From Bryum argenteum (Eukaryota > Streptophyta > Bryopsida > Bryales > Bryaceae): a DNA stretch of 64,000 nucleotides. The stretch covers positions 18,301,601 through 18,365,600 of the forward strand of contig CM073322.1 of assembly GCA_037043015.1 (NCBI GenBank). The letters run 5' to 3'. The position numbers and the translations under genes were made by a program. The notes under the pieces were generated by a model. That model did not search any database, was not told the origin of the DNA, and saw only the letters and a list, made by a program, of their open reading frames with translations. Positions 6,686 through 58,118 of the stretch are shown piece after piece; position 1 is the stretch's first letter, and each line of letters begins with the position of its first letter.

Positions 6686-7666
6686 TTAACCCCTAAACGT
6701 CCCTAGTGTCGAAAAACGACATTTTGGATGAAGGGCAGAAACTTTGAAGAGCCATAACTTCTTCATCCGGACTCCGTTTTTGACGAAATCACTTGGGTTG
6801 GGTCCCAAATTAAGTCTAGTTTGTGTGGTACAAATTGCAGACCTATACAAAGAAGTATGAATTAATGGCATGCATTTTAGTGACAGCAGCTTTTGGTTTT
6901 GAGATTTCAAACATTGGGCATGTTTCACCATTGCAAGCCAATTATGTAAAACCAAAAATGGTTTTCCATGAATTTTTTTTACATAAGTATGATCTTTAGA
7001 TGTATTCTAACAACTTTCTAGTTGCAAGTTTTTCGATCCAAATAACTTTGCTAGTGGATTTGCAATGATGTTTCTACAATGAAAAAAGTGAAAAAATGGA
7101 TGATTTTTGAGGAGCTAGATCTCCTTCATCCACCGTTAGATTTTGACTTTATTCTTTGGGATAGATTCCAATCATAGTCTATTTTAAGTGGTAGAAACCT
7201 TAACCTAATTGAAGATGTATTGAAGATAGGGCATGGATTTGAGTGCAAAGGGTCTAGTTTTGGACTATTTTTCCTTTGTAAATTTTGAGGCGATTTTCAC
7301 CATTGGAAGGCTACTATTTGAGCCAAGATATTTTTATGATGAATTTTTTTGGTACAAAAGTGTTTTTGAGATGAAGATGAACAACTTTCTAGTTGGTGGT
7401 TTTTTGATTGCAAATTTCATGTTGGTAGTATTTTCACTTCAAAGTGGAAATGATGGTATTTTGTAGCATGTTTTGCGCACTAATACGTTAGGATCTCCCA
7501 ATCTATGAGGTCCCATGAGTCAAGTTTTGGCCCACATGATCTACTACAAGTCTATTACAAGTTTGTACGGTTAAGATCTGAATAGCTTATCTTTATTTTC
7601 ATCTATATCACTTTTTTTGAAAATGAGTTTTTGGCTAAAAATACCCCAAGGACGTTTAGGGGTTAA
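6686..7666. mobile_element. TTAA-flanked piggyBac-like non-autonomous transposon, 981 bp
   Basis: Left end TTAACCCCTAAACGTCC, right end GGACGTTTAGGGGTTAA: a perfect 17-bp terminal inverted repeat including the TTAA. Just inside the left end is a small palindrome, GTCGAAAAACGAC, which recurs near ends of other copies. The interior is AT-rich with no long ORF, so it is non-autonomous. Its first about 270 bp recur inverted at about 28800-29066. Confidence 0.85.
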
Positions 7667-9872: not shown

Positions 9873-10248
9873 GATAGATGATAGATAGATAGATAGATAG
9901 AAACTCCGATCCCTTTCTAAGGGGCCGGCGTGAATGAAGTGTCCGTTCGTAATGCTAATATCCCGATGGCCACCGGACAAGGGGAAATTGGAACAATACT
10001 ACTTCCCCCTCTCGAGGGTGGACACTATAACTACGCTAGTTTCTAGCCTAGTTACTAGTGCCTTGAGGATACTTGACATAGTATCCCCCCAAAGGACTTT
10101 GAGGTACCCATACAACAAGGTCTAAGGACCCCCCACAATAGTTGGGTGGACTATAGTGGTGAGCACCTCGCCGGCATGGGGAATGGAACCCACGACCTCC
10201 TCAATGGGGGCCATGAGCCCCAACCACCAAGCCAAGGCTTGTGGTGCC
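9873..10248 (-). mobile_element. tRNA-derived SINE inserted at the start codon of the DWNN-RING gene
   Basis: Flanked by a perfect 14-bp target duplication, tcaatgacgatcca, at 9859-9872 and 10249-10262. Read on the minus strand it starts with GGCACCACAAGCCTTGGCTT, has an A-box-like GGCTTGGTGG and a B-box-like GGTTCCATTCC, and ends in a short TATC/GATA repeat tail. These are hallmarks of a tRNA-derived, RNA polymerase III SINE. A second copy lies at 34215-34568. The matching site in the paralogue near 55351 lacks the insert. Confidence 0.85.
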
Positions 10249-10251
10249 TCA

Positions 10252-11091
10252 ATGACGATCCACTACTATTTTGTTGCTTTTCCAAAGGTCCGCAAATCGG
10301 TTCCTTGCGAGGGCGATTCCCTCTCTCTTACAGAACTAAAAGATGCAATTGCAGCGCCGCTTGTTGATGGTTTACGCGGGAAGAGAATGAGAGAAACTTT
10401 CGATATCAAAATTTATGACAGTGATACAAAAGAGGAAATTCTAGATGCAAAGTGTAGGATCAAAAATAATGCTACTGTCTTAGCAAAAAGAGTTCCATTC
10501 TCTCGAATCGCCATACAAACTCTCAGAACTAATGAGCAAGTACCAATTAGCTCCAAAGGACAACATGAGGATACAAGCAACAACTCAACACCAAGTAGCA
10601 CACATTCAGAAGTCATCAATGACAATTTTGGAGACACTATGTATTCAATCGTGCATGCACCCCTTGGCAAAAAACGAGCATCATCTTACATTGAAGGAGT
10701 GGGTAATAAAAGGAGAATAAAAGAGGAGAGTACAAGTCAATGCGAGCAGATTCCAAAGGAGTTGACATGTTCACTTTGCAATAACGTGATGAATGATCCC
10801 GCGTTAATCTCGTGTTGCTATCTAAGCTTTTGTAGCAGTTGTATCAAGATTGCACTCACAGAGAAAAAAAAGTGTCCCAATTGTGAGTCTAGCAGATGTG
10901 TGCCCGCGAGTTTGCTTTCTAACCGCCAACTCAATACTTTGATTGAAACTTTCGTTAACAAGTCTACTTCAGCTACTCATGAGCCAAGGGATTGCAAACC
11001 CATTCTAGCTACTCATGAGCCAAGGGATTGCAAACCCATTCTACCTCGGAACCAAATCGACAATAATATGATACCCTTGGAGGGCAAGTAG
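10252..11091 (+). CDS. DWNN-RING protein, short RBBP6/PQT3-like E3 ubiquitin ligase, copy 1
   Basis: A 279-residue intronless gene. Residues 1-85 (MTIHYYFVAFPKVRK...) match the DWNN ubiquitin-like fold of RBBP6/MPE1 proteins, including the IYDSDTKEE and KRVPFSRI segments. A RING finger follows the pattern C-x2-C, CC, C-x2-C, CPNC. The CCHC zinc knuckle that normally lies between these domains is missing, and so is the long C-terminal region. Known full-length plant relatives (PQT3 type) are large, so this is a truncated, probably duplicated or retrocopied form. Start chosen at the ATG shared with the paralogue at 55351; the frame is open further up to an ATG at 10156, but that part is SINE sequence. 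A perfect 36-bp tandem duplication near the C-terminus repeats ATHEPRDCKPIL and accounts exactly for the 12 extra residues relative to copy 2. Expected role is ubiquitin transfer; activity is unproven. Confidence 0.75.
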   Translation: MTIHYYFVAFPKVRKSVPCEGDSLSLTELKDAIAAPLVDGLRGKRMRETFDIKIYDSDTKEEILDAKCRIKNNATVLAKRVPFSRIAIQTLRTNEQVPISSKGQHEDTSNNSTPSSTHSEVINDNFGDTMYSIVHAPLGKKRASSYIEGVGNKRRIKEESTSQCEQIPKELTCSLCNNVMNDPALISCCYLSFCSSCIKIALTEKKKCPNCESSRCVPASLLSNRQLNTLIETFVNKSTSATHEPRDCKPILATHEPRDCKPILPRNQIDNNMIPLEGK

Positions 11092-15039: not shown

Positions 15040-15755
15040 CATCGGGGAGGGGGTGTGTGGTTCTGGCAGGGCCCTGAAATCTTGGCCTTCCCTAGATGTT
15101 GAGAAGATAGAAAAGCTTAGATAGATGTGAAACTGGACTCCAGTTTGAATGTTTCGATAAAGTGAGTGTGCGATTGCCACGTGGCAGACCTGTGTACCTT
15201 CAGTTAGGTAGAGCATATGCTGGGGCGTTGAGCATCTCTTTGATGTGACACGTGGACAACAACTTTTGTATTTGTACAAGAGATTCCGTATTTGTATCTT
15301 GGCACCTCCAAGAAATTTATAACCAATCTAGTAAGTGGCTAGTTGATTGGGGAGTGGTCAAGTGAGTTAATTCTGAAAAACATGCAAAGTATTTAGAAGA
15401 TTGAACCAATTGGAATCATTACTTCTTGGTTCATGATGATGTAGTTATGAAATTTTAAAAGTAAAACCCGAAAGTGTACCCAAAACTGCTCACTCTAAAT
15501 CTACATTGTGGGTACATCAAAATCTATAATTGAACATTAAAATCTGAAATTGGACATCAAAATCCGAAATTCGACGCTATAATGTACCTCTAGCTTGAAT
15601 AGTTATAGTTAAAGGTTTGATGTGCTGCTTGGGTTTTGAGCCACCTACTATTCCTGAGTTAAGAAGATATGAATAAGACCTTGAAAACTTGGCTAGTCTC
15701 CTTAAGGAGCCTCTAGATACAAAACCCAGTTTGCATTTTACACACATTTATATGT
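15040..15755. other. Spacer upstream of the sucrose-phosphatase gene
   Basis: Promoter-side sequence of the gene to the left. No ORF of interest. A CCACGTGG palindrome lies at 15178-15185, a G-box-type core often found in plant promoters; whether it acts here is unknown. Confidence 0.4.
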
Positions 15756-16660
15756 TTAACCCCTACAGTTAAAAAAAGAACCCTGAATGGGTCGAATGAA
15801 GGTTTGGCCAGTCTCTAATTTACTATATTTAGCTCGCATGAAGTTGAAACCTTTTGGAGGTAGTAGAGTTGTTCCATAGCCTTTTAAAAAGTCACTCCAT
15901 GCTTCAGAATTCCTTATACTTCAGGAGATATTTTCGGTCGAAGTTAGAAAAACACTATTTGAAATCTACCCAAAACTGCCAATTTGCGGGTATAAGCTCA
16001 TCTATTCTCAAAAGTTGCCTTAAATCAAATAAACTGTAGAAACTTTAAAAGTTCACCAGAATTTGAGATTTTACATTTCTTTTCTCAAAAATTAAAATAA
16101 AATAAAATATATATTACATTATATATATATATTTTTTTTTTTTTAATTTTTTTTTTTTTTTTTTGTAAATATGGTAAAATACATGACCATTCCAATCCTC
16201 AATCCAATTACTTTTCAAATGCCATTTTTATTGTCAGAGAGGGGCCTTCGTATATGACTTTAATTAAACCTCGATGTGAACAAAGGAGCGTTTCTTTCAA
16301 GTTTTTATAGGTTGTATGACAGTATAATTGCATGGACATGTTCTTTACTCACCTAGGAACAAGAATTTGAAGAGCCTCATATCAAATTCGCTACCAAAAA
16401 TAGCTTTTTTGGCTCTCAAAGTACTAGTTACCCTTTCTACAAGAAGGGGAAAAATACAAACTTCTTGCAATTTTGGAACATTGTGATCTCACATTTGGTA
16501 AGGAAATTGAATATAAGATTAGATATACATACACACATACAAGTTAGGTATTAGGTCCTATGGTTACACACCAAAAAATACGTCAAAATTCAACTTGCAT
16601 CAAAAGAGGGTACTTTTTGGTAGTTTTGAGACTTTTCGGCAATTTTGAGGCTAGCTAGTT
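15756..16660. mobile_element. TTAA-family transposon, right end decayed
   Basis: Left end TTAACCCCTACAG. The interior matches 56409-57233 over long stretches (a TTTAGCTC.CATGAAGTT word, a GTCACTCCATGCTTC word, a GATATTTTCGGTC word). The right end near 16655 no longer shows a clean GGGGTTAA. Contains T-runs at about 16131-16164. Confidence 0.6.
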
Positions 16661-19600
16661 GGCATCGAAGGTAAACAACCACATATCTTGGGGACAAATT
16701 GGTGCTATGAATGTTCTCTACTTTGTTCTCTATGAATGTTATCAATTTAAGCATCCGGGGTCTCCTCCTTAAATTTTTGAGGAGAAGGAATAGATTGGTG
16801 AGGATGTTCTAAGAGCATCGCCATGCTTGGGCTGAACATGAACTTAGGAGATTTTGTTTAGAGTGAGTGTCTTTTGAGATTCCTTTCACTGATTCTCCTT
16901 CTGAGGCCGCCAAATTGAATATCCGCTTTGATACTATCGTAGTGGGTGACCATGGAACTTTGACATGGAACATGAAGTACATTTCATCTAAATCGTGTCT
17001 AAATTGAACATGAACTTTGACACTACGATAGTATCAAAGGACTAACTTTAACACCGATCGCTGTGGGTGACCATAAATCTGCCTATGTATTTGACGGTGT
17101 AAGAAAGCTAGAACATAGTGTTGAAAAAAGCGCAAGTATTTAGCCGGTGATGTAAGAAACCTTAACCAACATAGCTTTGAAAGGAAAAAAAAGTGGGTAT
17201 TCAATGCTCAGGAAATTTGCACTTGACTTGATGGTGAGATTCGAGGGAGTGCGGAGTAAGGTTTTTTTTAAGGGGCGAGCGTTAGTCCTCTCTTTGGGTG
17301 CCTGTGCAAGCTATAGTTGCGATCCATTGCGATCCACAGGGATGAATTTGCAACAGCCTTGAGCACTTATTGCCGGACGGATGGAGTAAAAACAACTTTG
17401 CTTCAGCTTCAACATAAGCGCAACAATGTGTTTTCTAGATACAACCCTTCACAATCATTCACAGCTTGATTATATCCTCATTGCTAAAGAAACTGCTACT
17501 CGGTCGATGTTTTATTCATATCTTGGGCAGTGAAAGATAATGGTCTATTCTGAGACAATTTCAACTGAAGCGAGAGAGGATGACTACAGCTGCAATCTTT
17601 GATCATGGAAGCTGACTATGAACACATGGTTGTAATGAAAAATACACTGCACAACTCATCTAGATTCACTAAACATACAAATACACTAGGGTTGTCTTGT
17701 CAGACAAAATTCTTATTCATTTGTCAAACACAATTTTATCTATAATTTTTGTCTGATAGGACAACGCGACTGTATAGCACATCGAAAGGCCGGGGATAGC
17801 GAACAAGCAACGCCACTGACAAGGAGAAGGAGACGGAGCAGCAACATCAACGCCGGCTATGGCTGCTGCCATGCTTGCGTATGAATTCCACCATCTTCGT
17901 GCGTGATCAATGTCGTCATCACTATTTCAATTTGTGACGATTGCGATCACTTACCTGCTGGGATTCATGATATACTGTACAGTACAGGCACGTCTAGATT
18001 GTAAGTTCATGAATCTGCCTTGATGCAGGTCATTGGAAGCTTCAAGTACTTCGATCATACTTTTTTCATTTCATTAAAAAAAAAAAAAAAAAAAAAAAAT
18101 ACAAAAATCACATTGAGACTGTAAAGTAAAGTCCGTTGCAATCGCATCAAGTTTAACTTCAATCTCGAAATAGTTTTAAGACATTAAATATCAGAAATTA
18201 CCTCCCATATTAACCCCTGAAGCAGATTGCTCTGCGTTGACAACCAAGTAGGCGTTTCTGAAATTGCTGTAAAAATCTTTCTGAGGTTTGAGTTTGAGAA
18301 ATTCAAGCGTAGGTTCTTGTTAAGAACCATCTCATTAGTCTGTTCACCAAGTTTCATCAAATTTGACCGTACGAATTTTGAGATATGTTCAGTCAAAGTT
18401 CCATGATTTGTAAAAAACGTCTTTTTTTATGGGCAAATTGATTTGATTCTGATTTGCTTTAGAGGTTAAAAAAAAATGAGTAACACCAATCAAACCTTGG
18501 TCCCTTGTTGTGTGAGATGTTTGTTTGACCTACCCTTAGTGATATTCTCCTTTAACTTGGAGGGGCGTAGTGGTGATTTCTTGTTGTATTTTTGGTACGG
18601 GTTGTAGGAGGACAACTAAATACTTTTTTGACTTTGGCAAGAATGGTAGAGATTTTGAGTTTTGGCAAAAAATTCATTAAGGATATACTGTAATTGCTTT
18701 GCAAGATCCTTCATAGAACACTTGTAATATTGTGTAGGGCTAAGCAAACAACGTCAAAGGTTTGTTGGTCGTTATAACTTGTTGAGAAATCATTATAAGC
18801 TAAAGACTAAAAAGCATATCATAGCAACCCTTTGATCAGCTTGAGCTCAAGTATCTCAAGAATAACCTCAAAAATTCTTTAAAAATATGTTTGTTATAAT
18901 GAATGTTGTAGGTGAAGCAAGAGTGAGAGCACTCAATAGTAGGTGGTAAACTCAATATTTGTGATTTTATTTTTGTGATTTTGAGTGATGTATGTGTAAA
19001 ATTGTTGTGAAGTAGCAGTACACTTTAGTGTGATTGTAATGCACTTTACAATTTTTAGTTTGGATGAACTTCAAGCAGAGACAAAAAAATTCTAAATTTT
19101 GAAAGATTATGTCTCAAAAGACAAATTGGTGAGCAATCTAGAAATGATTGCACGGGAGAGTGCTAATAAATGGCTCAAATTTTGAGATACCCTAATCTAT
19201 AGTGAAGATAATAGTGAAAGAAAATTTCATGCATGGGGAAAGTAAATGAAGAAAAGATCAAAGTGGATTCATCATTTTTGGACTCTTTTACAGTTTGTTA
19301 TGATATTTTGAAGGTGGACTTGTAGGTGTTTCTGAAATGGTGTCCTAATTTAACACCATGTAATGTTTGGGATGATTAAGTGCAGCGTACTATAGAAGTG
19401 TGCAGCTATCATGTAGCTTTGTATGAAGAAGCCTAGTGCTCCATTCATCGGTACTGCTCCGTTTTGGACCGCTCTCCCTTACGATTGTGCTTGCTGAAGG
19501 GTACCGACACTGGATCAGGAATGTACACAGAGTCTTTTACTGTTTGAGAGACTGCAGGTTTTGTGCTTTACTTGATTCCCATTAGTACATTTAATGCACA

Positions 19601-26860: not shown

Positions 26861-27199
26861 TTAACCCTTATACGCCCATGGGGTCTGAAACGGGCAACCC
26901 AAAATTGGATCACAACATCTTTTGGACTTGGGCATCATGAATGAACCAATCAATGATGAGCTTGCAACCTCCTACAAGCTTATGTACAACCCCAACCTAC
27001 CTACCACAATCCTTTCAAACCACAAAATCACTCATACAAATTGTGATTTGAATTGTAAAATTTCACTTTTTGAATATATCACAAGGAGGTGACCAGTTTG
27101 ACATCAAAATATAAGTGAAATGTTCATTACAGTGAGAGGTACAGAGAAGATTCTGTTGGAATCAAGCCCCTTGGGCTTGCTTGGGCGTTTAAGGGTTAA
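26861..27199. mobile_element. TTAA-flanked piggyBac-like MITE, 339 bp
   Basis: Left TTAACCCTTATACGCCC, right GGGCGTTTAAGGGTTAA. The interior matches the outer element at 57535-58118 in reverse orientation (shared GATGAGCTTGCAACCTCCTA and ACCTACCTACCACAATCCTT). Confidence 0.85.
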
Positions 27200-27913
27200 G
27201 ACCGTACCATCCAAATTGGCGATGAAGAAAACCTTGCCCAACTTGTTTTTGGGAACTTATAGAATATAAAAGATAATATGTAACTTGGGACAAACGATCA
27301 CCTTACATGTCTTGTTGAGCACAAAATGAAGGTAACTTATTTGGATCTCAAGCGTATATTCTAATAGAAGAATTATTGTAATTCATATGGACCAAATATT
27401 GAGTCATGGAAACTCACGGATTGCAAGTTCATGATGTATTAGTATTAAGAACAAATTGCAAAATTTCATCATTGTCACTTTAGTATGGAAATTTCACCAA
27501 CAAATCGATTGCAATGAAAAAATATAGATTACCAACAAGGAATTTGTTTACCTTCATCTCAAGAACACCATTGCACAAGAAAAATTCATCAAATATATAT
27601 ATTGGCCTATATATTGGTGAAAATTAGAATGGTGAAAACTGCCAAAAACTTTAGAAAGGAAAAGTAGTTCAAAACTAGATTTTTTTCACTCACACCTATG
27701 ACTTCTCTTCAAAGCATCTTTGATCTAGAGAAGGTTCTACCACTAAAACTAGACTTGATTGGAATTCATTCCAAAACAAAGTTGGATGAAGAACAACATT
27801 GGATGAAGTTTTGTACATGTAGGAAAGGTAGTAAGGCATGATGTTTTTGTTTGGATCTTGAATCCAATAATTCTTTACAAGCCTTTCTAATTATTGGAAT
27901 TGGGCCTTTGTAC
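27200..27913. other. AT-rich spacer, nothing recognised
   Basis: No gene or clear repeat seen. Confidence 0.35.
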
Positions 27914-28352
27914 TTAACCCCTAAACGCCCAAGGGGGGGGGGGTAAAGCTCCTAACAGTTGGTAATAATGCTGATTTTTTCAAAACTGCGTAAAGAAAAA
28001 TAAAAGATGAAAATGGAAAATCCAATTGTAGGATCTTCTTTGGAGCATGACAATTAGTATGATCTCCAAGTTGCATGCCATTTGGAGCTATCGATTTCAA
28101 GATCCACGCAAAAAAGGGGTGAAGATCACACCACCAAAACTTTCATGAAAAATCTCTTTCGCCCACTCTCACAAATTGAGGATCAAGGTTTTTACTATTT
28201 ATCCAAGGAGGGAGTAGAGTAAACCCACCGAGGAGTTGAGCAAAAAAAACGGTGGATGAAAAATCGATGGGATGAAAGCAGGGCTGTGCACCAAAGACGG
28301 AGCCTCACATCCAGAATGTCAAAAAACGACACTGTGGGCGCTTAAGGGTTAA
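27914..28352. mobile_element. TTAA-flanked piggyBac-like MITE, 439 bp
   Basis: Left TTAACCCCTAAACGCCC, right GGGCGCTTAAGGGTTAA. A G-run lies at about 27933-27943, just inside the left end. Near the right end is the palindromic GTCAAAAAACGAC word also found at the left end of 6686-7666. Confidence 0.8.
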
Positions 28353-29066
28353 GTTTCAGCATACCTCCATGTGAAAAATCAAGCATTTCTTTAGGTTATA
28401 TAGGTTGCATGAGGGTAAAAGTTGCATACACATGTTTCTAACTTACCTAGGAACAAGAATGTGAAGAGCCTCATGTCAAATATCCTTCCACAAATGGTAT
28501 TTTTGGCCCTCAAAACATTACATTTGCCATTCTATAACATCGAAAGAATTTTTTTTCCAACTTTGAACGTTATGATCTCACAAATGGTGAGGATATTGAA
28601 TTAAAAATCTTGTATGCATTTACATGTACAAGTCAAGCCGGTTCTAGATACTATGGTTACGTACTTCAAACTTGTTAACTTGTTACGTACTTCAAAACTT
28701 GTCAAAATCAAAATTTGCATCTTGCATCAAAAGAGGGCACTGTTGAGGGCTTTTGGTTGTTTTGAGGTTGCTCACCTCCAATGCTTGAGATATATATTTG
28801 ATTCCAAATAAATGGCTTGCAATGGTAAAACATGCTTTATGTTTGAAGTCCCAACACCAAAAGCTTGCTCCCACTAAAATGCATGCTATGAATTCATACT
28901 TCATTGGATAGGTGTGCAATATTTACCACACAAACTAAACTTGATTTAGAGACCCAACCTAAGTGATTCCATCAAAACTCGTCATTTCATGGAGTTATGA
29001 CTCTTCAAAGTTTCAACCCTTCATCCAAAATGTAGAAAAACAACATTGGGGACACTTAAAGTTAAT
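28353..29066. mobile_element. Chimeric relic made of two TTAA-family elements
   Basis: 28353-28760 matches about 56845-57200 (GTTTCAGCATACCTCCATGT, GAACAAGAATGTGAAGAGCC). 28800-29066 is an inverted match of the left 270 bp of 6686-7666 (ATGCATGCTATGAATTCATA, CATTTCATGGAGTTATGAC) and ends in a decayed GGGGACACTTAAAGTTAA. Confidence 0.65.
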
Positions 29067-29129: not shown

Positions 29130-29362
29130 TTAACCCTTAAAAGTCCCTTGGGGATAGTATGTACGCTATCGTATAATTAGGATTTGCTACCAACAAGAAA
29201 CTCTAAACTGGAATCGTAATAGCTCACTAGAACCGCATGAATTCAAATGTCAACTTCTTCTTTGAACTCAAACCCATTAATCCCTAAAGGTCTGAGCGTG
29301 CCGTGGCGACCAGTAGAATACGGTGTATTTTGGTTGTATTTGGAGTGAATGCACACCTTTAA
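29130..29362. mobile_element. TTAA-family MITE, left member of a dimer, right arm inverted
   Basis: Begins TTAACCCTTAAAAGTCCC. Its first about 143 bp are nearly identical to the start of 29359-29590. From an internal TTAA (about 29268) to the right TTAA the sequence is the reverse complement of the normal right arm, so GTCCTTTAGGG-type end sequence points inward as TCCCTAAAGGTC. The right TTAA is shared with the next copy. Confidence 0.75.
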
Positions 29363-29590
29363 CCCTTAAAAGTCCCTTGGGGATAGTATGTACGCTGTCG
29401 TATAATTAGGATTTGCTACCAACAAGAAACTCTAAACTAGAATTGTAATAGCTCACTAGAACCGCATTAATTCAAATGCAACTTCTTCTTTGAACTCAAA
29501 CCCATTAAAGGTGTGCATTCACTCCAAATACAACCAAAATACACCGTATTCTACTGGTCGCCACGGCACGCTCAGACCTTTAGGGGTTAA
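29359..29590. mobile_element. TTAA-flanked piggyBac-like MITE, 232 bp, right member of a dimer
   Basis: Left TTAACCCTTAAAAGTCCC, right CAGACCTTTAGGGGTTAA. The same element is found in reverse orientation at 57879-58111, so this is the canonical form of the subfamily. Confidence 0.85.
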
Positions 29591-32129: not shown

Positions 32130-33063
32130 TTATCCCCTAAAAATCCAGGAAAACCGATTCGGTTTTCTGAGATTTCGGGCAGCTCATTTTAAGCATTTAA
32201 ATTGATATTTTTGCCTAAGATTTTTATTGCGTGCTCCCCATACAGTAATGTGTATGTGGTGAAATTTTCAAAGTCAAATTTTAATTTTATAGCCTTCACC
32301 TAGAAATTTTAGGTTTCAAGTCCAAAATGGGCAGTTTAAAATTAATTTTTTAAATTTTTCTTTTTAGAAATATGTTCATTACCAAGTTACTATTCAAATT
32401 TCAAAGTATCCAAAGTCAAAAAGTTTACCAATTTTACAAGGGCAGCCTCCAAAACTTTCAAAAACAATCTTCTCAATTTCTAGTAATTTTACAATTTTTT
32501 CTTTCAAAAATTGCCAAAATTTGAGATTTTGGATTTTTTCCAAGATTTTTTTTTTTTCGAAATTCACATTATCATAAATGCACCTTCTCACCGTCGAGAT
32601 TTTTCTCAAAGTAAATATATCATATGTGGTGCTTGTTTTACTATATGGTTGTTTTAAGACCTTCTTTCATAAAATATTTACATTAAGGTCAAAAAGTGGA
32701 TTTGGTCTCTAAACTTTTGCATGAGCATACCCAACTTGATTACCTACATGAAAAAAAATGAGGGAAAAATATTTGGAATAACAATCATCAAGTTGCCCTT
32801 GGCACCATTTAGACAATGCCTCTCACGCAGCGGCAAAAAAAAGTGTTGGTCAAACTTTGATTGTTATGATCTCACAAATGACAAACATCCAACGGTTGAA
32901 ATTTTGACCAGTCCTTTGTATACAACTTAGGTACAAGATCTTACGGTTCAAAGTCTAAAACCAGAAAAAAAAGTCTCTCCATTTCCCCATTTCCCAACAA
33001 AGGTGAAAAATGGCAGTTTTTGGTTCTGGAGGTCGAGAAAACCCCTGGATTTTTAGGGGTTAT
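32130..33063. mobile_element. TTAT-flanked piggyBac-like transposon, 934 bp
   Basis: Left TTAT then CCCCTAAAAATCCAGG, right CCTGGATTTTTAGGGG then TTAT. The same tetranucleotide TTAT flanks both ends as a direct repeat. Sister copy of 35136-36064, with matching interior throughout (GTGCTCCCCATAC, CCAAGTTACTATTCAAATT, TCACAAATGACAAACATCCA). No coding capacity. Confidence 0.85.
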
Positions 33064-33431: not shown

Positions 33432-33691
33432 TTAACCCCAATTCCGTTTAAATGGCACTATGCCATGTGCCATTTTGTCAGACTAGATCTTACATTTGTG
33501 CTCATATAAAATGGTATATTCTGTAATATCACATTTTTTTTGTAATATCACTTCTTTGTATACATTGTCACTCATTTTCCCTAATATCACCTTAAATTTC
33601 TGTTATATCACATGGTTTTTGAGCTACACTTCAGAAAGTTGAGGTACGCCATTTTATCGGAATAATGTCATTTTAACGGAATTGGGGTTAT
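33432..33691. mobile_element. TTAA/TTAT-flanked MITE with a different inverted repeat, 260 bp
   Basis: Left TTAA then CCCCAATTCCGTTTAAATG, right CATTTTAACGGAATTGGGG then TTAT. Ends start with CCCC like the main family, but the next bases differ, so this is another subfamily. The interior has repeated TGTAATATCAC words. A decayed relative is at about 58630-59255. Confidence 0.75.
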
Positions 33692-34202: not shown

Positions 34203-34214
34203 AACTGCTTGTTA

Positions 34215-34568
34215 GATAGAAACTCCGGTCCCTTTCTAAGAGGCCGGCGTGAAAGAAGTGTCCGTTCGTAATGCTAATATCCCGATGGCCACCGGACAAG
34301 GGGAAATTAGAACAATACTTCTTCTCCCTCTCGAGGGTGGACACCATAACTACGCTAGTTTCTAGCCTAGTTACTAGTGCCTTGAAGATACTTGACATAG
34401 TATCCCCCCAAAGGGCTTTGAGGTACCCATACAACAAGGTCCAAAGACCTCCCACAATAGTTGGGTGGACTATAGTGGTGAGCACCACTCCAGCATGGGG
34501 AGTAGAACCCGCGACCTCCTCGTTGGGGGCGTAAGCCCTAACCACCAAGCCAAGACTTGTGGTGCCTT
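34215..34568 (-). mobile_element. tRNA-derived SINE, second copy
   Basis: Target duplication of 12 bp with one mismatch: aactgcttgtta (34203-34214) and aactacttgtta (34569-34580). On the minus strand it starts AAGGCACCACAAGTCTTGGC, with an A-box-like GGCTTGGTGG and a B-box-like GGTTCTACTCC, and ends CGGAGTTTCTATCTA. About 90 percent identical by eye to 9873-10248. Confidence 0.85.
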
Positions 34569-34580
34569 AACTACTTGTTA

Positions 34581-35135: not shown

Positions 35136-35550
35136 TTAACCCCTAAAAATTGAGGAAATCAGATTTAGTTCTCTGAGATTTCGAGCTGCTCATTTTAAGA
35201 AAATAAATTGATATTTTTGCTTAAGATTTTTACTAAGTGCTCCCCATACTATAATGTGTATGTGGTAAAATTTGCAAAGCCAAATTCTAGTTTTTAAACC
35301 TTCATCCAGAAATTTTAGGCTTCAAGTCCAAAACGGATAGTTTAAATTTAGCTTTTTCGAAGTATTCATTTTTAGGAATATGTTCATTACCAAGTTACTA
35401 TTCAAATTCCAAAGTGACCAAAAGTCAAATCGTTTACCAATTTTACAAGGGCAACCTCCAAAACTTTCAAAAACAACCTTCACAATTTCTAATAATTTTA
35501 CAATTTTTTCTTTCAAAAATTGCCAAAATTTGAGATTTTGAAAATTTTCC

Positions 35551-35587
<37 letters not shown>

Positions 35588-36064
35588 CAAAATGCACATA
35601 CTCATGAAGGCACTAACTCACCGTCCAAATTTTTCTTAAACTTAACACATCATATGTGGTGCTTGTTTACTTTATTGTTGTTTTTAGACCTTTCATAGAA
35701 TAATTTACATTAAGGTCAAAAAGTGGAATGAGTCCCTAAAATTTTGCAGGAGTGTACCCAACTTGATTACCTACATGGAAAAAAATGAGGGAATTTTTTT
35801 TGGAGTGACAATCATCAAGTTGCCCTTGGCACCATTTAGACAATGCCTCTCAGACAGCAGCAAAAAAAGGTGTTGGACGTTATGATCTCACAAATGACAA
35901 ACATCCAACGGTTGAAATTTTGACCAATCCTTTGTATACATGTTAGGTACAAGATCTTACCTTTCCAAAAGAAGTTTCTCCATTTCCCCATTTCCCAACA
36001 GAAGTGAAAAATGGCAATTTTTGGTTTTGGAGGTTGAGGAAACGCTTGGATTTTTAGGGGTTAA
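35136..36064. mobile_element. TTAA-flanked piggyBac-like transposon, 929 bp
   Basis: Left TTAACCCCTAAAAATTGAGG, right CTTGGATTTTTAGGGGTTAA. Same subfamily and orientation as 32130-33063. Contains a T-run of about 37 at 35551-35587. Confidence 0.85.
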
Positions 36065-46250: not shown

Positions 46251-46493
46251 TTATCCCTTAAACGTCATATGCTTTCCTGATACCACACCCAAAATCTCTT
46301 TTAAACTCCATTTTTAGCATTATTCTATTTTTAATTTGCTTGAGCTCTATTCTAAGAAAGTATAGATCTCTTTAAGGTGCTCAGTTTGGAATTCTAAAAA
46401 TTCCATTTGGTATAATGGAGTGTAAGTTATGAGCAAGATTCTCTGGAAAAAAAAACCCAACCCCTCGGGTTGGGTCTGACGTTTAAGGGTTAT
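46251..46493. mobile_element. TTAT-flanked piggyBac-like MITE, 243 bp
   Basis: Left TTAT then CCCTTAAACGTCA, right TGACGTTTAAGGG then TTAT. The 13-bp inverted repeat is perfect, and TTAT is in direct orientation on both sides. Near the right end is a small hairpin, CCCAACCC-CTC-GGGTTGGG. Confidence 0.88.
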
Positions 46494-48613: not shown

Positions 48614-48881
48614 TTAACCCCTAAAGGTCCTTTATACAAAATTGTTTAAATTATCAAAATGAACCTTCCTCTACTTCAGGTGCAAAGAAACTCAATCTAA
48701 GCATTGATTAAAAGATCCGACCGTAGGATCTTGAATTTAACTTGACCCTTTTCTCGAATGTCAAATTTGAACCGTTAATTTTTCTCCAATTTTGAGATTA
48801 TAATGGTCAAAGTTGGCTGAATTTTATCCCTGCGGAAATTCCAAATAGCGATTTCCGCTTTTTTGGACCTTTAGGGGTTAA
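48614..48881. mobile_element. TTAA-flanked piggyBac-like MITE, 268 bp
   Basis: Left TTAACCCCTAAAGGTCC, right GGACCTTTAGGGGTTAA: a perfect inverted repeat of 17 bp including TTAA. No coding capacity. Confidence 0.88.
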
Positions 48882-53988: not shown

Positions 53989-56105
53989 GCAATTTACATG
54001 AAGATTTTTCTAACTGTTTGAGCCCACTCTGTCACATTGTAGAATGCTATTTTTGCTTTTGCTACGTTTGCAATGTTTGCTGACTTTGGAATGCACTCGT
54101 GAACGTGGTTTAATTAAGTTCCGTTCTTTTGAAATGGTGGTTGGAGTGTTGGACGAGTACAGAACCAAGTTGGGTTGGAACTCTTTAAACAGAGCTAATC
54201 TTTAGAAAGCTTCTTAATTTGGAGGTCGGGAGGGAGTTTTTGGACAGCAATATATCATGGTTTTAATTGCATACGGTGCATACATACACATTGCATACGG
54301 TGCATACATACAGTAATATATTCAACGAACTTCCATGTGCTTAATGGCAGATAATTTTTATTACAATTTGTTATCTCAATTTGTCATTTGTTTTGGGGCA
54401 ATAAACAACTTGTGAGTATTATTCCACCCTAAATGTATATATCCACTTTCCCTCTACTTTCCCTCCAAGGGTCTCATATTATTGTAAACAACTTGTAAGT
54501 ATTATTCCACTCTAATTGTATATATTTATTTTCCCTCTACATTCCCTCTACTTTCCCTCCAAGAAAATCATATTATTGTCGATTTGGTTATGAGGCAGAA
54601 TGGGTTTGCAATCCCTTGGCTCATGAGAAGCTGAAGTAGACTTGTTAATGAAAGTTTCAATCAAAGTATTGAGTTGGCGGTTAGAAAGCAAACTCGCAGG
54701 CACACATTTGCTAGACTCACAATTGGGACACTTTTTTTTCTCTGTGAGTGCAATCTTGATACAAGTGCTACAAAAGCTTAGATAGCAACACGAGATTAAC
54801 GCGGGATCGTTCATCACGTTGTTGCAAAGTGAACATGTCAACTCCTTTGGAATGTGCTCGCATTGACCTGCACTCACCTCTTTTGTTCTCCTTTTTTTAC
54901 CCACTCCTTCAATGTAAGATGATGCTTGTTTTTTGCCAAGGGGCTCCTGCACAATTGAATACGCAGTGTCTCCAAAATTGTCATTGATGACTTCTGAATG
55001 TGTGCTACTTGGTGTTGAGTTGTTGCTTGTATCGACTTGTTGTGCTTTGGGGCTCATCGGTGCTTGCTCATTAGTTCTGAGAGTTTGTGTGGCGATTCGA
55101 GAAAATGGAACTCTTTTTGCCATGACAGTAGCATTATTTCTGATCCTAAACTTTGCATCTAGAATTTCCTCTTTCGTGTCACTGTCATAAATTTTGATAT
55201 CAAAAGTTTCTCTCATTCTCTTCCCGCGTAAACCATTGACAAGCGGCGTTGCAATTGCATCTTTCAATTCTCCAAGAGAGAGGGAATCCCCCTCGCAAGG
55301 AATCGATTTGCGGACTTTCGGAAAAGCAACAAAATAGTAGTGGATTGTCATTGATGCAAGTGAGGAAGTAGATTCTTTTTTTTCCTAGATGAGAAGGTAT
55401 TGAAACAAGTGGTTGCACGGACAATCCTCTCACAAGTAAACAAGTGACAGAGAGACAAAGATGCCGGAGACAAATCCAAGGAAAGACACAAACACATAAG
55501 AAACTCAATGGAAAGCAATTTTGTGCTTTATTTCTTGCTTACTTAATCGACTTGTTTAGTGAGGCAAGAGGTATATGTAGGACATATCAACTAAACTCTC
55601 AAGACCTATCAAGTAAACTCTCGAGACTTATCAACTAAACTCTCGAGACTTAGTAACTAAACTCTCCGGACTTCACTCATAAACCACGCCCACCCAAGTA
55701 CGAAGGATGTTTGTGAGGAATAAAAAGATTTAAATATTTCCAGAAATGGAAAATATAGTAAGACAATCTGCAAAACTGATTCTTTGTAGGGTTATCTTAA
55801 TACAACCCACAACACTTTCCTTGCATATAAAATCTCTGAATTCCAAGGCCAGCACAACGAAAGAGAAATATGTGAAACTGTGAAGAGAAAATCACTTAAT
55901 ATATAGTCCAACGTTCTTTTACTTTACCTTCTTTTACTTTTACCTATTTTTCAATATCTCACTCTTTTACTTTCTTTTCCCTTCTATTCATTACATTGCT
56001 CTTACTTTTTCCCTTGTCTGTTTATTACCTTCCTTTTACTTTTTTTTACTTTCCATACGGTTTTAGACCAGTCAAATTCTGAGGGCCATAGCCATAATTC
56101 AGCAA
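53989..56105 (-). repeat. Right copy of the 2.1-2.5 kb inverted duplication
   Basis: Reverse-complement mate of 9121-11640. It lacks the SINE. Its left border falls just downstream of EMC2. Contains an about 16-bp tandem duplication of a GCATACGGTGCATACATAC word at about 54270-54312 and duplicated TTCCCTCTACTTTCCCTCC words at about 54445-54560. Confidence 0.8.
54548..55351 (-). CDS. DWNN-RING protein, short RBBP6/PQT3-like E3 ubiquitin ligase, copy 2
   Basis: Intronless, 267 aa, paralogue of 10252-11091. The DWNN fold covers residues 1-86 (ends MAKRVPFSRI). Residues 87-165 are a low-complexity linker with a basic patch (GKKRRTKE). The RING finger uses Cys173, Cys176, Cys188 or 189, Cys194, Cys197, Cys208 and Cys211, with the CC pair and CPNC typical of RBBP6. 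The zinc knuckle and everything after the RING in RBBP6 are absent. The start lies in the un-interrupted ancestral context (CATCAATGACAATCC), which shows where the SINE entered copy 1. Both frames have stayed open despite many nucleotide differences, which hints at selection but does not prove it. Function as a ubiquitin ligase is inferred. Confidence 0.78.
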   Translation of the reverse strand: MTIHYYFVAFPKVRKSIPCEGDSLSLGELKDAIATPLVNGLRGKRMRETFDIKIYDSDTKEEILDAKFRIRNNATVMAKRVPFSRIATQTLRTNEQAPMSPKAQQVDTSNNSTPSSTHSEVINDNFGDTAYSIVQEPLGKKQASSYIEGVGKKRRTKEVSAGQCEHIPKELTCSLCNNVMNDPALISCCYLSFCSTCIKIALTEKKKCPNCESSKCVPASLLSNRQLNTLIETFINKSTSASHEPRDCKPILPHNQIDNNMIFLEGK

Positions 56106-56408
56106 GGAGTGTAGTACAGGCACTCTAAAAGCCACAAGCAGGCAGCTACTAACTTAGCTTTCAGTCACCAGCCTTTCTTGTCCACAATTGATCGTACCTC
56201 TCATGATTTAGTGGCCTCTCACAAACACTAAGCTACTCTAATGACTAAGCTATGAACCTCGCCCCATTGATAGGGCTGAATGGCCATGTCTAACATTTAG
56301 TTAGGGGAGAGGGGTTTCTAAATATAGAATTCCTCTAAATCCACACCTGGCCACAATTTTCAATTTTATTATTATTATTATTATTTAATTTTGATTTATT
56401 TTTTGGAA
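56106..56408. other. Spacer, nothing recognised
   Basis: Short ATT trinucleotide run at about 56367-56384. No gene. Confidence 0.35.
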
Positions 56409-57233
56409 AATTCCTCAATCCCTAATGTCGAAAAGAGTGAAAATCGGGTCGTTTGGGGTGTGGTCAGCCCCTTATTTAATATATTTAGCTCATATGAAGT
56501 TCAAACCTTTCGCAGATTGAAGAGTTTTTTCATACCTTTCCGAAGAGTCATTTCAAACTTCAAAATTCCTCATACTTTAGGAGATATTCACGGTCAAATT
56601 TTGAAAACACTATTTGAAATGTGCCCAAATTTAAAAAGTGCCGAAACTCCGGTATCTGCCCAAAATAAATAAGATCGCTAGAACTTCAAAATTTGCGAAC
56701 AATTGAGATTTTACTTTTTTTTTACAAGTTTGTCTTTTGTACTTGGAAATAAGGTTTTAGAGCACAATCTCACTGTTTGGATCTTTCATCCAATTGTTCT
56801 TCACAAGCCATTTTTATTATCAAAGAGGGGCCTTTGAAGTTGAATTTCAGCATACCTCCATGTGAAAATTCAAGCACTTCTTAAGGTTTCATAGGTAGCA
56901 TGAGGACGAAAATTCCATTGGCATGTTCCTAACTCTCTTAGGAACAAGAATTTGAAGAGCCACAGTTCAAATTTACTCTTGAAATTGGTCTTTTGGGCTC
57001 ACAGAAAACTTCACACCCATTTTGCAACAAGGGAAAAAAGCTTAATTTTCGACTTGATCTCACAATCGGTGAGGAATTTGAAACTAAGTTTTGGTACTCA
57101 CATACATGGTAGAGTTAGGTATAAGATCTTACACTTTCATACTTGAGATTACGTCAAAAGTTGAAAATATTCATCAAGAGGGTAGTTTTGAAGAGTTATG
57201 TCAGTTTTGGGGGCTTTTGACTTTAGGGGTTAA
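56409..57233. mobile_element. TTAA-family transposon, about 825 bp, left end decayed
   Basis: Right end CTTTAGGGGTTAA is intact; the left end reads CAATCCCTAATGTCGAAAAG, a decayed CCCCTAA end. Same subfamily as 15756-16660, and its right half is also found at 28353-28760. Confidence 0.7.
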
Positions 57234-57534: not shown

Positions 57535-58118
57535 TTAACCCTTAAACGCCGAAGGTGACCCGACGCGTCATGTTCCAAGAGAATCTCCACTGTAGCTCTC
57601 AATATACTCAACTTTTCACTTTTATTTTGATGTCAAACTGGTCACCTTCAGTCTTGTGATGCATTCAAAAAGTGAAATTTTAGAATTCAAATCCCAATTT
57701 TGTGCTTTGAAAGGATTGTGGTAGGTAGGTTGGGGTGGTACATAACCTTGTAGGAGGTTGCAAGCTCATCATTGATTGGATCATTCATGATGCCCAAGTT
57801 CAAAAAGTGCACTATTCATGATGCCCAAGTCCAAAAGATGCTGTGATCCAATACTGGGTAATCCGTGTAGCCTGACGTTTAACCCCTAAAGGTCTGAGTG
57901 TGCCGTGGTGACCAGTGGAATACGGTGTAATTTGGTTGTATTTGGAGTGAATGCACACTTTTAATGGGTTTGAGTTCAAAGAAGAAGTTGACATTCGAAT
58001 TAATGCGGTTCTAGTGAGCTATTACAATTCCAGTTTAGAGTTTCTTGTTGGTAGCCAATCCTAATTATACGACAGCGTACATACTATCCCCAAGGGACTT
58101 TTAAGGGTTAAGGGTTAA
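57535..58118. mobile_element. TTAA-flanked piggyBac-like MITE (outer), interrupted by another
   Basis: Left TTAACCCTTAAACGCC. The right end is split: TGACGTTTAA at 57873-57882, then after the inner element GGGTTAA at 58112-58118. Without the insert it is about 355 bp and matches 26861-27199 in reverse. Confidence 0.85.
57879..58111. mobile_element. TTAA-flanked piggyBac-like MITE (inner), nested, 233 bp
   Basis: Left TTAACCCCTAAAGGTCTGAG, right GGGACTTTTAAGGGTTAA. Inserted in the TTAA of the outer element's right inverted repeat. Reverse-orientation copy of 29359-29590. Confidence 0.88.

Follow-up and report, generated by a model that had tools for sequence, protein, structure and literature searches.

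The piggyBac superfamily has been mostly an animal story, and the finding of what looked like its MITEs in a 64,000 nt stretch of the moss Bryum argenteum genome (the window) raises two questions. A first-pass annotation had read the segment 57535-58118 as one such MITE inserted into another, and had taken this as proof of a TTAA target duplication. Does the locus bear that reading, and does the same genome hold a transposase able to move such elements?

A nested insertion and its relatives in the window

The junctions at this locus are as the annotation described them. The outer element extends over 57535-58118 and carries the inner element (57883-58107, 225 bp) in its right inverted repeat, with TTAA on either side, the site being a TTAA internal to that repeat. 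The order across the junctions is GACGT-TTAA, the inner element (CCCCTAAAGG...TTTTAAGGG), TTAA and GGGTTAA; joining the flanks with a single TTAA restores the expected outer right end, GACGTTTAAGGGTTAA, which agrees at 15 of 16 bases with the outer left end (GGCGTTTAAGGGTTAA) in reverse complement. The two alignments proposed as checks were also made: the joined outer element aligned from end to end with 26861-27199 (280 identical, 39 mismatched and 56 gap positions), and the inner element was 96.1% identical to 29359-29590 over 233 bp. The features of the locus are as follows.

57535..57538, unstranded: left TTAA duplication of the outer element, from the junction reading
57539..58114, minus strand: outer MITE, 347 bp without the 229-bp insert; same family as 26865-27195, orientation reversed relative to it
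57879..57882, unstranded: TTAA at which the inner element inserted, in the right inverted repeat of the outer one
57883..58107, plus strand: inner MITE, 225 bp
58108..58111, unstranded: second TTAA copy from the inner insertion
58115..58118, unstranded: right TTAA duplication of the outer element

With two mismatches at most, the end motif TTAACCCYTAAAVGYC is found at 25 places in the window, where 100 shuffles average 0.38. Scanning for 4-bp direct repeats of whatever sequence that adjoin CC-starting inverted repeats with at least 11/14 agreement gave ten pairs (seven TTAA, two TTAT and one AATT), whilst ten Markov nulls gave 0-3 pairs each and none with TTAA. One TTAA pair is a cross-pair of two elements, and the AATT pair falls inside another element. 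A further TTAA pair, 18214-18465, has TTAA on both sides and inverted repeats agreeing at 11/14, and was excluded from the element counts as doubtful. The scan missed the outer element, the inner element and 29363-29586, the two ends of which, taken as they stand, fall short of 11/14 agreement; adding these three to the remaining pairs gives ten complete elements. In addition to the nested pair, the elements of this end type in the window are the following.

6690..7662, unstranded: 973-bp element, TTAA, with ends of the same type and without a frame of 120 residues or more
26865..27195, plus strand: intact outer-family copy, flanked by TTAA at both ends
27918..28348, unstranded: 431-bp element, TTAA, situated in an older repeat
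29130..29362, minus strand: inner-family copy with a TTAA-bounded piece, 29277-29362, inverted in place
29363..29586, minus strand: full inner-family copy; the TTAA at 29359-29362 is common to it and the neighbouring copy
32134..33059, plus strand: 926-bp element, TTAT on both sides
35140..36060, plus strand: 921-bp relative of 32134-33059 (82% identical), TTAA-flanked; parts near both ends resemble those of transposase-bearing elements
46255..46489, unstranded: 235-bp element, TTAT on both sides
48618..48877, unstranded: 260-bp element, TTAA

In all ten complete elements a 4-bp duplication, TTAA in eight and TTAT in two, adjoins CCC ends. With the outer right end taken from the joined sequence, CCC is present in 20/20 ends and a C at position 12 in 19/20. 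Together with the rearranged copy at 29134, the ten elements amount to 5,106 bp, or 8% of the window.

A second nested case is provided by 27918-28348, which lies in an older repeat whose relatives at 56735-57006 and 16195-16420 lack the interruption. When the element and one TTAA are removed, the flanks align to both relatives without a gap over the junction; keeping one, two or no TTAA scored 284, 276.5 and 272.5 in one comparison and 224.5, 221.5 and 217.0 in the other. Two older related repeats, 15746-16648 and 56394-57233, each have a CCCC end and TTAA on one side; the copy into which 27918-28348 inserted, around 27800-28660, is a third.

The full-length (233-bp) copy at 29130-29362 carries an exact inversion of the 86 bp that reach from an internal TTAA to the terminal one; with this piece turned back, it has 227 bases identical to the 232-bp neighbouring copy. 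Such a product would be expected if one end of the element alone had attacked the TTAA inside it, and we suggest that the copy may be the footprint of a self-insertion.

Other repeats are also present in the window. An element with inverted ends of about 32 bp (ACCCCAATTCCGTT...) at 33432-33691, flanked by TTTAA and TTAT, has no detected sequence in common with the piggyBac-like MITEs. Dispersed gene-like copies (10126-11091, 54548-55384 and a piece at 34213-34570) lie within longer repeats, their longest DNA matches being 88% and 93% identical; 10126-11091 codes for a DWNN domain with a RING-like part, and the copies perhaps stem from a captured or transposed gene. An ERF protein encoded in the window has its closest match in an unnamed protein of source 'lgn' (93% identity over 86%); the nearest from named species are those of the mosses Ceratodon purpureus (59%) and Physcomitrium patens (56%).

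Ends and transposases across the genome

Searching the B. argenteum assembly (258.8 Mb, 25 contigs) revealed 4,477 occurrences of CCCYTAAACGCCC, compared with 26 of a reversed control pattern. The first-pass annotation had proposed counting such ends next to TTAA: 4,024 (89.9%) follow this tetramer, with 33 preceded by TTAT, 43 by CTAA, 41 by ATAA and the remaining 336 by sequences outside these four. At least 40 further inner-family matches were found at 94-97% identity (best 40 of 949 candidates scored), and at least 39 of the outer family at 89-94%, along with six secondary ones (best 40 of 3,007 candidates scored). Amongst the loci fetched, 36 of 39 inner-family copies are flanked by TTAA on both sides and three have one differing side; in one of these three, L034, the first bases of the element are changed and the boundary was misplaced by the script. 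For the outer family the flanks are TTAA/TTAA in 21 of 35 copies, TTAT/TTAT in one, CTAA/CTAA in one and unequal in 12, ten of which still have TTAA on one side; we read the unequal flanks as later mutation or a misplaced boundary. One locus (L044, C3:10781342-10781915) is a tandem of two inner-family copies with one TTAA in common.

The elements are strongly short on contig C1, the largest of those seen (44.1 Mb). It holds 93 CCCYTAAACGCCC ends where about 763 would be expected by length, 0/33 of the TTAT-, 0/43 of the CTAA- and 0/41 of the ATAA-preceded ends, 0/45 paired ends and 5/116 of the matches to the transposase profile described below. C1 might be a sex chromosome or heterochromatin, among other possibilities.

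A tblastn search of the 64-kb window with Trichoplusia ni piggyBac found no convincing transposase (best E 1.5). In the whole genome, a profile search with PF13843 gave at least 116 scored matches from 776 candidates, with a best E of 7.4e-82; every match listed is above the cut-off, and by our count 23 of them contain an internal stop. No match was found in 14 control genomes.

The regions around 20 of the best 23 PF13843 matches were then compared with the ends. In 15 of the 20 the transposase, which the first-pass annotation had suggested searching for near such ends, is enclosed by TTAA-flanked, CC-starting inverted repeats agreeing at 11-14 of 14 bases; the elements so bounded are 4.5-6.5 kb long, L011 alone reaching 8.4 kb, and one end of L028 begins TCC. 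The other five (L013, L015, L022, L025 and L026) have no TTAA/CC pair at 10/14 or better. Ends of the YCCYTAA type occur in 12 of the 15, including CCCTTAAACGCCC, which the outer MITE also has, and CCCCTAAARATCC, which nearly matches that of the 32134/35140 pair. CC-starting pairs with other tetramers in the same regions mostly agree at 10-12/14, with a GTAC pair at 14/14 in L010, and dropping the CC condition gives 14/14 pairs with other tetramers in L009, L010 and L014, both scans being made without a shuffled control. A first pairing for L009 (7,317 bp) was dropped, its right end being that of a neighbouring MITE copy; the nearest good pair spans 4,942 bp. Elsewhere, C6:5515093-5519934 has TTAT on both sides of 4,842 bp with a PF13843 match inside.

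Some of the window MITEs resemble these larger elements. The 929-bp MITE (the 35140-36060 element) is 68-73% identical to right-end parts of L012, L014, L019, L020, L021, L024 and L028, and about 80-82% identical to left-end parts of L012, L020 and L024, whilst 48614-48881 is 70-77% identical to right-end parts of L012, L019, L020 and L028. The terminal 30 bp of the outer family match L009, L010 and L027 at 87-90%, in a comparison that used the 7,317-bp version of L009. No match to the inner family was found among the 15 elements compared, hence a partner for this family can be proposed from its ends only.

Eight stop-to-stop moss frames of 730-1187 residues were scanned, and PF13843 is the sole Pfam domain in 8/8; a second one, such as might mark the cysteine-rich C-terminal domain of piggyBac, is seen in none of them, and T. 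ni piggyBac gives none either. The DDE domain is preceded by 259-715 residues, which is longer than the presumed 129 residues of T. ni piggyBac. In the frames of L010, L014, L016, L019, L023, L024 and L028 this region is about 370-715 residues long and has no Pfam domain.

Against the PDB, the L010 transposase matched only piggyBac (6x67, E 2e-29) and piggyBat (9c0f, 7.7e-24) at E of 0.001 or less. It aligns with 6x67 through three acidic blocks, DE, DN and VD, which we take to hold the catalytic DDD residues; the DDD feature of piggyBac is thus seen, through these aligned blocks, in this one transposase. The alignment with piggyBat extends nearly to the C-terminus. A protein search with a whole moss transposase gave at least two matches (best 8,000 word-sharing candidates scored), and the DDE region of L010 gave 80 relatives from 2,711 candidates. 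Unnamed proteins from ENA or JGI are 64% and 58% identical to it, four others lie at 38-41%, another reaches 60% across 35% of the query, and the remainder are at 25-37%; the relatives with named hosts are from animals, at 27-32%. No named plant is among the 80, in a database that includes Ceratodon and Physcomitrium proteins, but annotated proteomes may omit transposons, hence this does not show that plants lack them.

Of 52 sequences submitted to a tree, 51 were retained: 18 stop-free moss regions, T. ni piggyBac and some of the 80 relatives. All 18 from the moss fall with six unnamed proteins into one clade with 100/100 support, within which five label changes are required for the moss rows, placing the unnamed proteins in between the moss lineages. 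The grouping follows the ends: L009, L010, L018, L023 and L027 (CCCTTAA) fall together, as do L014, L019, L020, L021, L024 and L028 (YCCCTAA). L019 and L020 are near-identical, as are L014 and L021, and six PF13843 matches tie at 258.4 bits, which suggests that these elements may have spread recently. A tentative reading, close to evenly balanced, is that mosses have a deeply diverged piggyBac clade of their own, its proteins long at the N-terminus, its lineages each having their own inverted-repeat variant and set of MITEs, and some members still being mobile; this would make it a native, mobile piggyBac system in a land plant.

The depth of the moss clade, with no named member among the tree rows, and the 259-715 residues ahead of the DDE domain might be thought to indicate that the mover belongs to a PF13843 group outside piggyBac, for instance an IS1380-like or otherwise divergent lineage. 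We consider this very unlikely, as the alignments of L010 take in the DDD blocks of T. ni piggyBac and reach almost to the C-terminus with piggyBat, and the combination of TTAA with CCC ends is that of piggyBac. A piece of the inner MITE found no match in prokaryote genomes, and PADLOC returned no result.

Length of the target duplication

A TTAA site cannot separate a 4-bp duplication from a TA duplication with ACCC..GGGT ends, hence the nested insertion does not by itself prove the former: the description of the elements as piggyBac-like MITEs stands, but the claim that this locus alone establishes the length of the duplication does not. All ten window elements fit 4 bp with CCC..GGG ends, and all ten equally fit 2 bp with ACCC..GGGT ends, at an offset of one. 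Tc1/mariner (Stowaway-like) MITEs with a TA duplication, ACCC...GGGT ends and a preference for TTAA would therefore account for the nested insertion and the TTAA copies equally well.

The copies at other tetramers decide the matter. As 32134-33059 and 46255-46489 have TTAT on both sides, the fourth base is part of the target; in these copies the bases preceding CCC and following the right TTA have changed in concert. The CTAA/CTAA copy of the outer family places the first base in the target as well. Across the genome, 13 of the 33 CCCYTAAACGCCC ends preceded by TTAT have an ATAA-preceded partner no more than 5 kb away on the opposite strand; the number of such pairs expected by chance within 10 kb is about 0.03. 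One of the pairs bounds the 4,842-bp C6 element with its PF13843 match, and three short TTAT pairs that were read have flanks differing from one another. The duplication is hence settled as 4 bp long by the TTAT- and CTAA-flanked copies. These are not the TA duplications of Tc1/mariner or Stowaway elements, and the genes found between such ends encode PF13843 proteins; we regard a Tc1/mariner origin as exceedingly improbable.

Other TTAA duplicators fare no better. Sola3 elements duplicate this tetramer. Kolobok elements do too, but one account gives their ends as 5'-RR (PMC9587614), as opposed to CCC in 20/20 ends of the window elements. The transposase frames scanned between such ends contain PF13843 only (8/8), leaving Kolobok or Sola3 with a negligible probability. 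PIF/Harbinger (Tourist-like) MITEs with a 3-bp TTA or TAA duplication are scarcely credible: both trimers adjoin the ends, but 3 bp fits 0/10 window elements at the three symmetric offsets tried, the asymmetric reading that this leaves would have the fourth base of the TTAT copies agree by accident, and the transposase is of a different family.

The elements thus show the 4-bp TTAA duplication, the CCC or CCYT ends with inverted repeats of about 12-19 bp, and the PF13843 partner between like ends that characterise piggyBac. The ends, the 4-bp duplications, the restored outer end and the transposase genes bounded by like ends and duplications can be read directly from the genome, and the TTAA, TTAT and CTAA duplications with PF13843 between like ends identify the elements as piggyBac MITEs of a land plant that also holds their autonomous relatives. 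The original assignment to piggyBac from a TTAA duplication and CCC ends is in this way borne out by the TTAT/TTAT and CTAA/CTAA copies and the bounded transposases. We are almost certain that the window elements are non-autonomous members of the superfamily in a moss, presumably moved by the PF13843 transposase of larger relatives.

In the mechanism we propose, a PF13843 DDE/D transposase from such relatives in the same genome would bind the 12-14 bp inverted repeats of CCCYTAAA type, excise the element and join it to TTAA, or occasionally TTAT or CTAA, with duplication of the four target bases. At 57879 the target would have been the TTAA contained in the CCCTTAA-type inverted repeat itself. 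The cutting chemistry and the mobilisation in trans are inferred from established knowledge of piggyBac.

Comparison with known elements

The closest parallels are in animals. An account of Pokey and mPok, piggyBac superfamily elements of Daphnia, describes MITEs and autonomous elements with common ends, as in the moss; the duplications there are TTAA (88.13%), TTAT (5.93%), ATAA (5.09%) and CTAA (0.85%), so that Pokey has the same minor sites, and insertion into the TTAA beside another copy gives rise to tandems (PMC3849761), which the inner-family tandem at L044 resembles. Unlike the moss elements, which are dispersed over contigs, Pokey has an animal host and is partly targeted to rDNA. The piggyBac-like coral MITEs known as CMITEs are described as having CC[C/T]T ends, TTAA and tandem arrays (PMC2872659); their host is again an animal, and the likeness is one of description and not of sequence. 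T. ni piggyBac and piggyBat have the PF13843 transposase, TTAA and CCC ends in common with the moss elements.

In plants, a table for the fern Ceratopteris contains 1,230 PiggyBac repeats (PMC6890710), and a 2023 review places PiggyBac among angiosperm MITE superfamilies (PMC10004981); the accessible portions of these two sources do not describe a transposase-bearing element with its ends and duplications. The introduction of a 2025 paper treats plant piggyBac cases as occasional and little studied (PMC12732532). We recognised no account of moss piggyBac elements in the open-licence literature searched, and in the available text of a moss genome paper 'piggybac' occurs solely within 'piggybacking' (PMC10619864).

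What stands out here is therefore not piggyBac MITEs or their transposase, which are known, but the moss host, how many transposase frames are open and how the MITE ends go with particular transposase lineages. The many open-frame transposase matches and thousands of matching ends make the life, inheritance and control of piggyBac elements in plants testable, and a piggyBac native to plants could be turned into a tool for delivering genes to them without scars.
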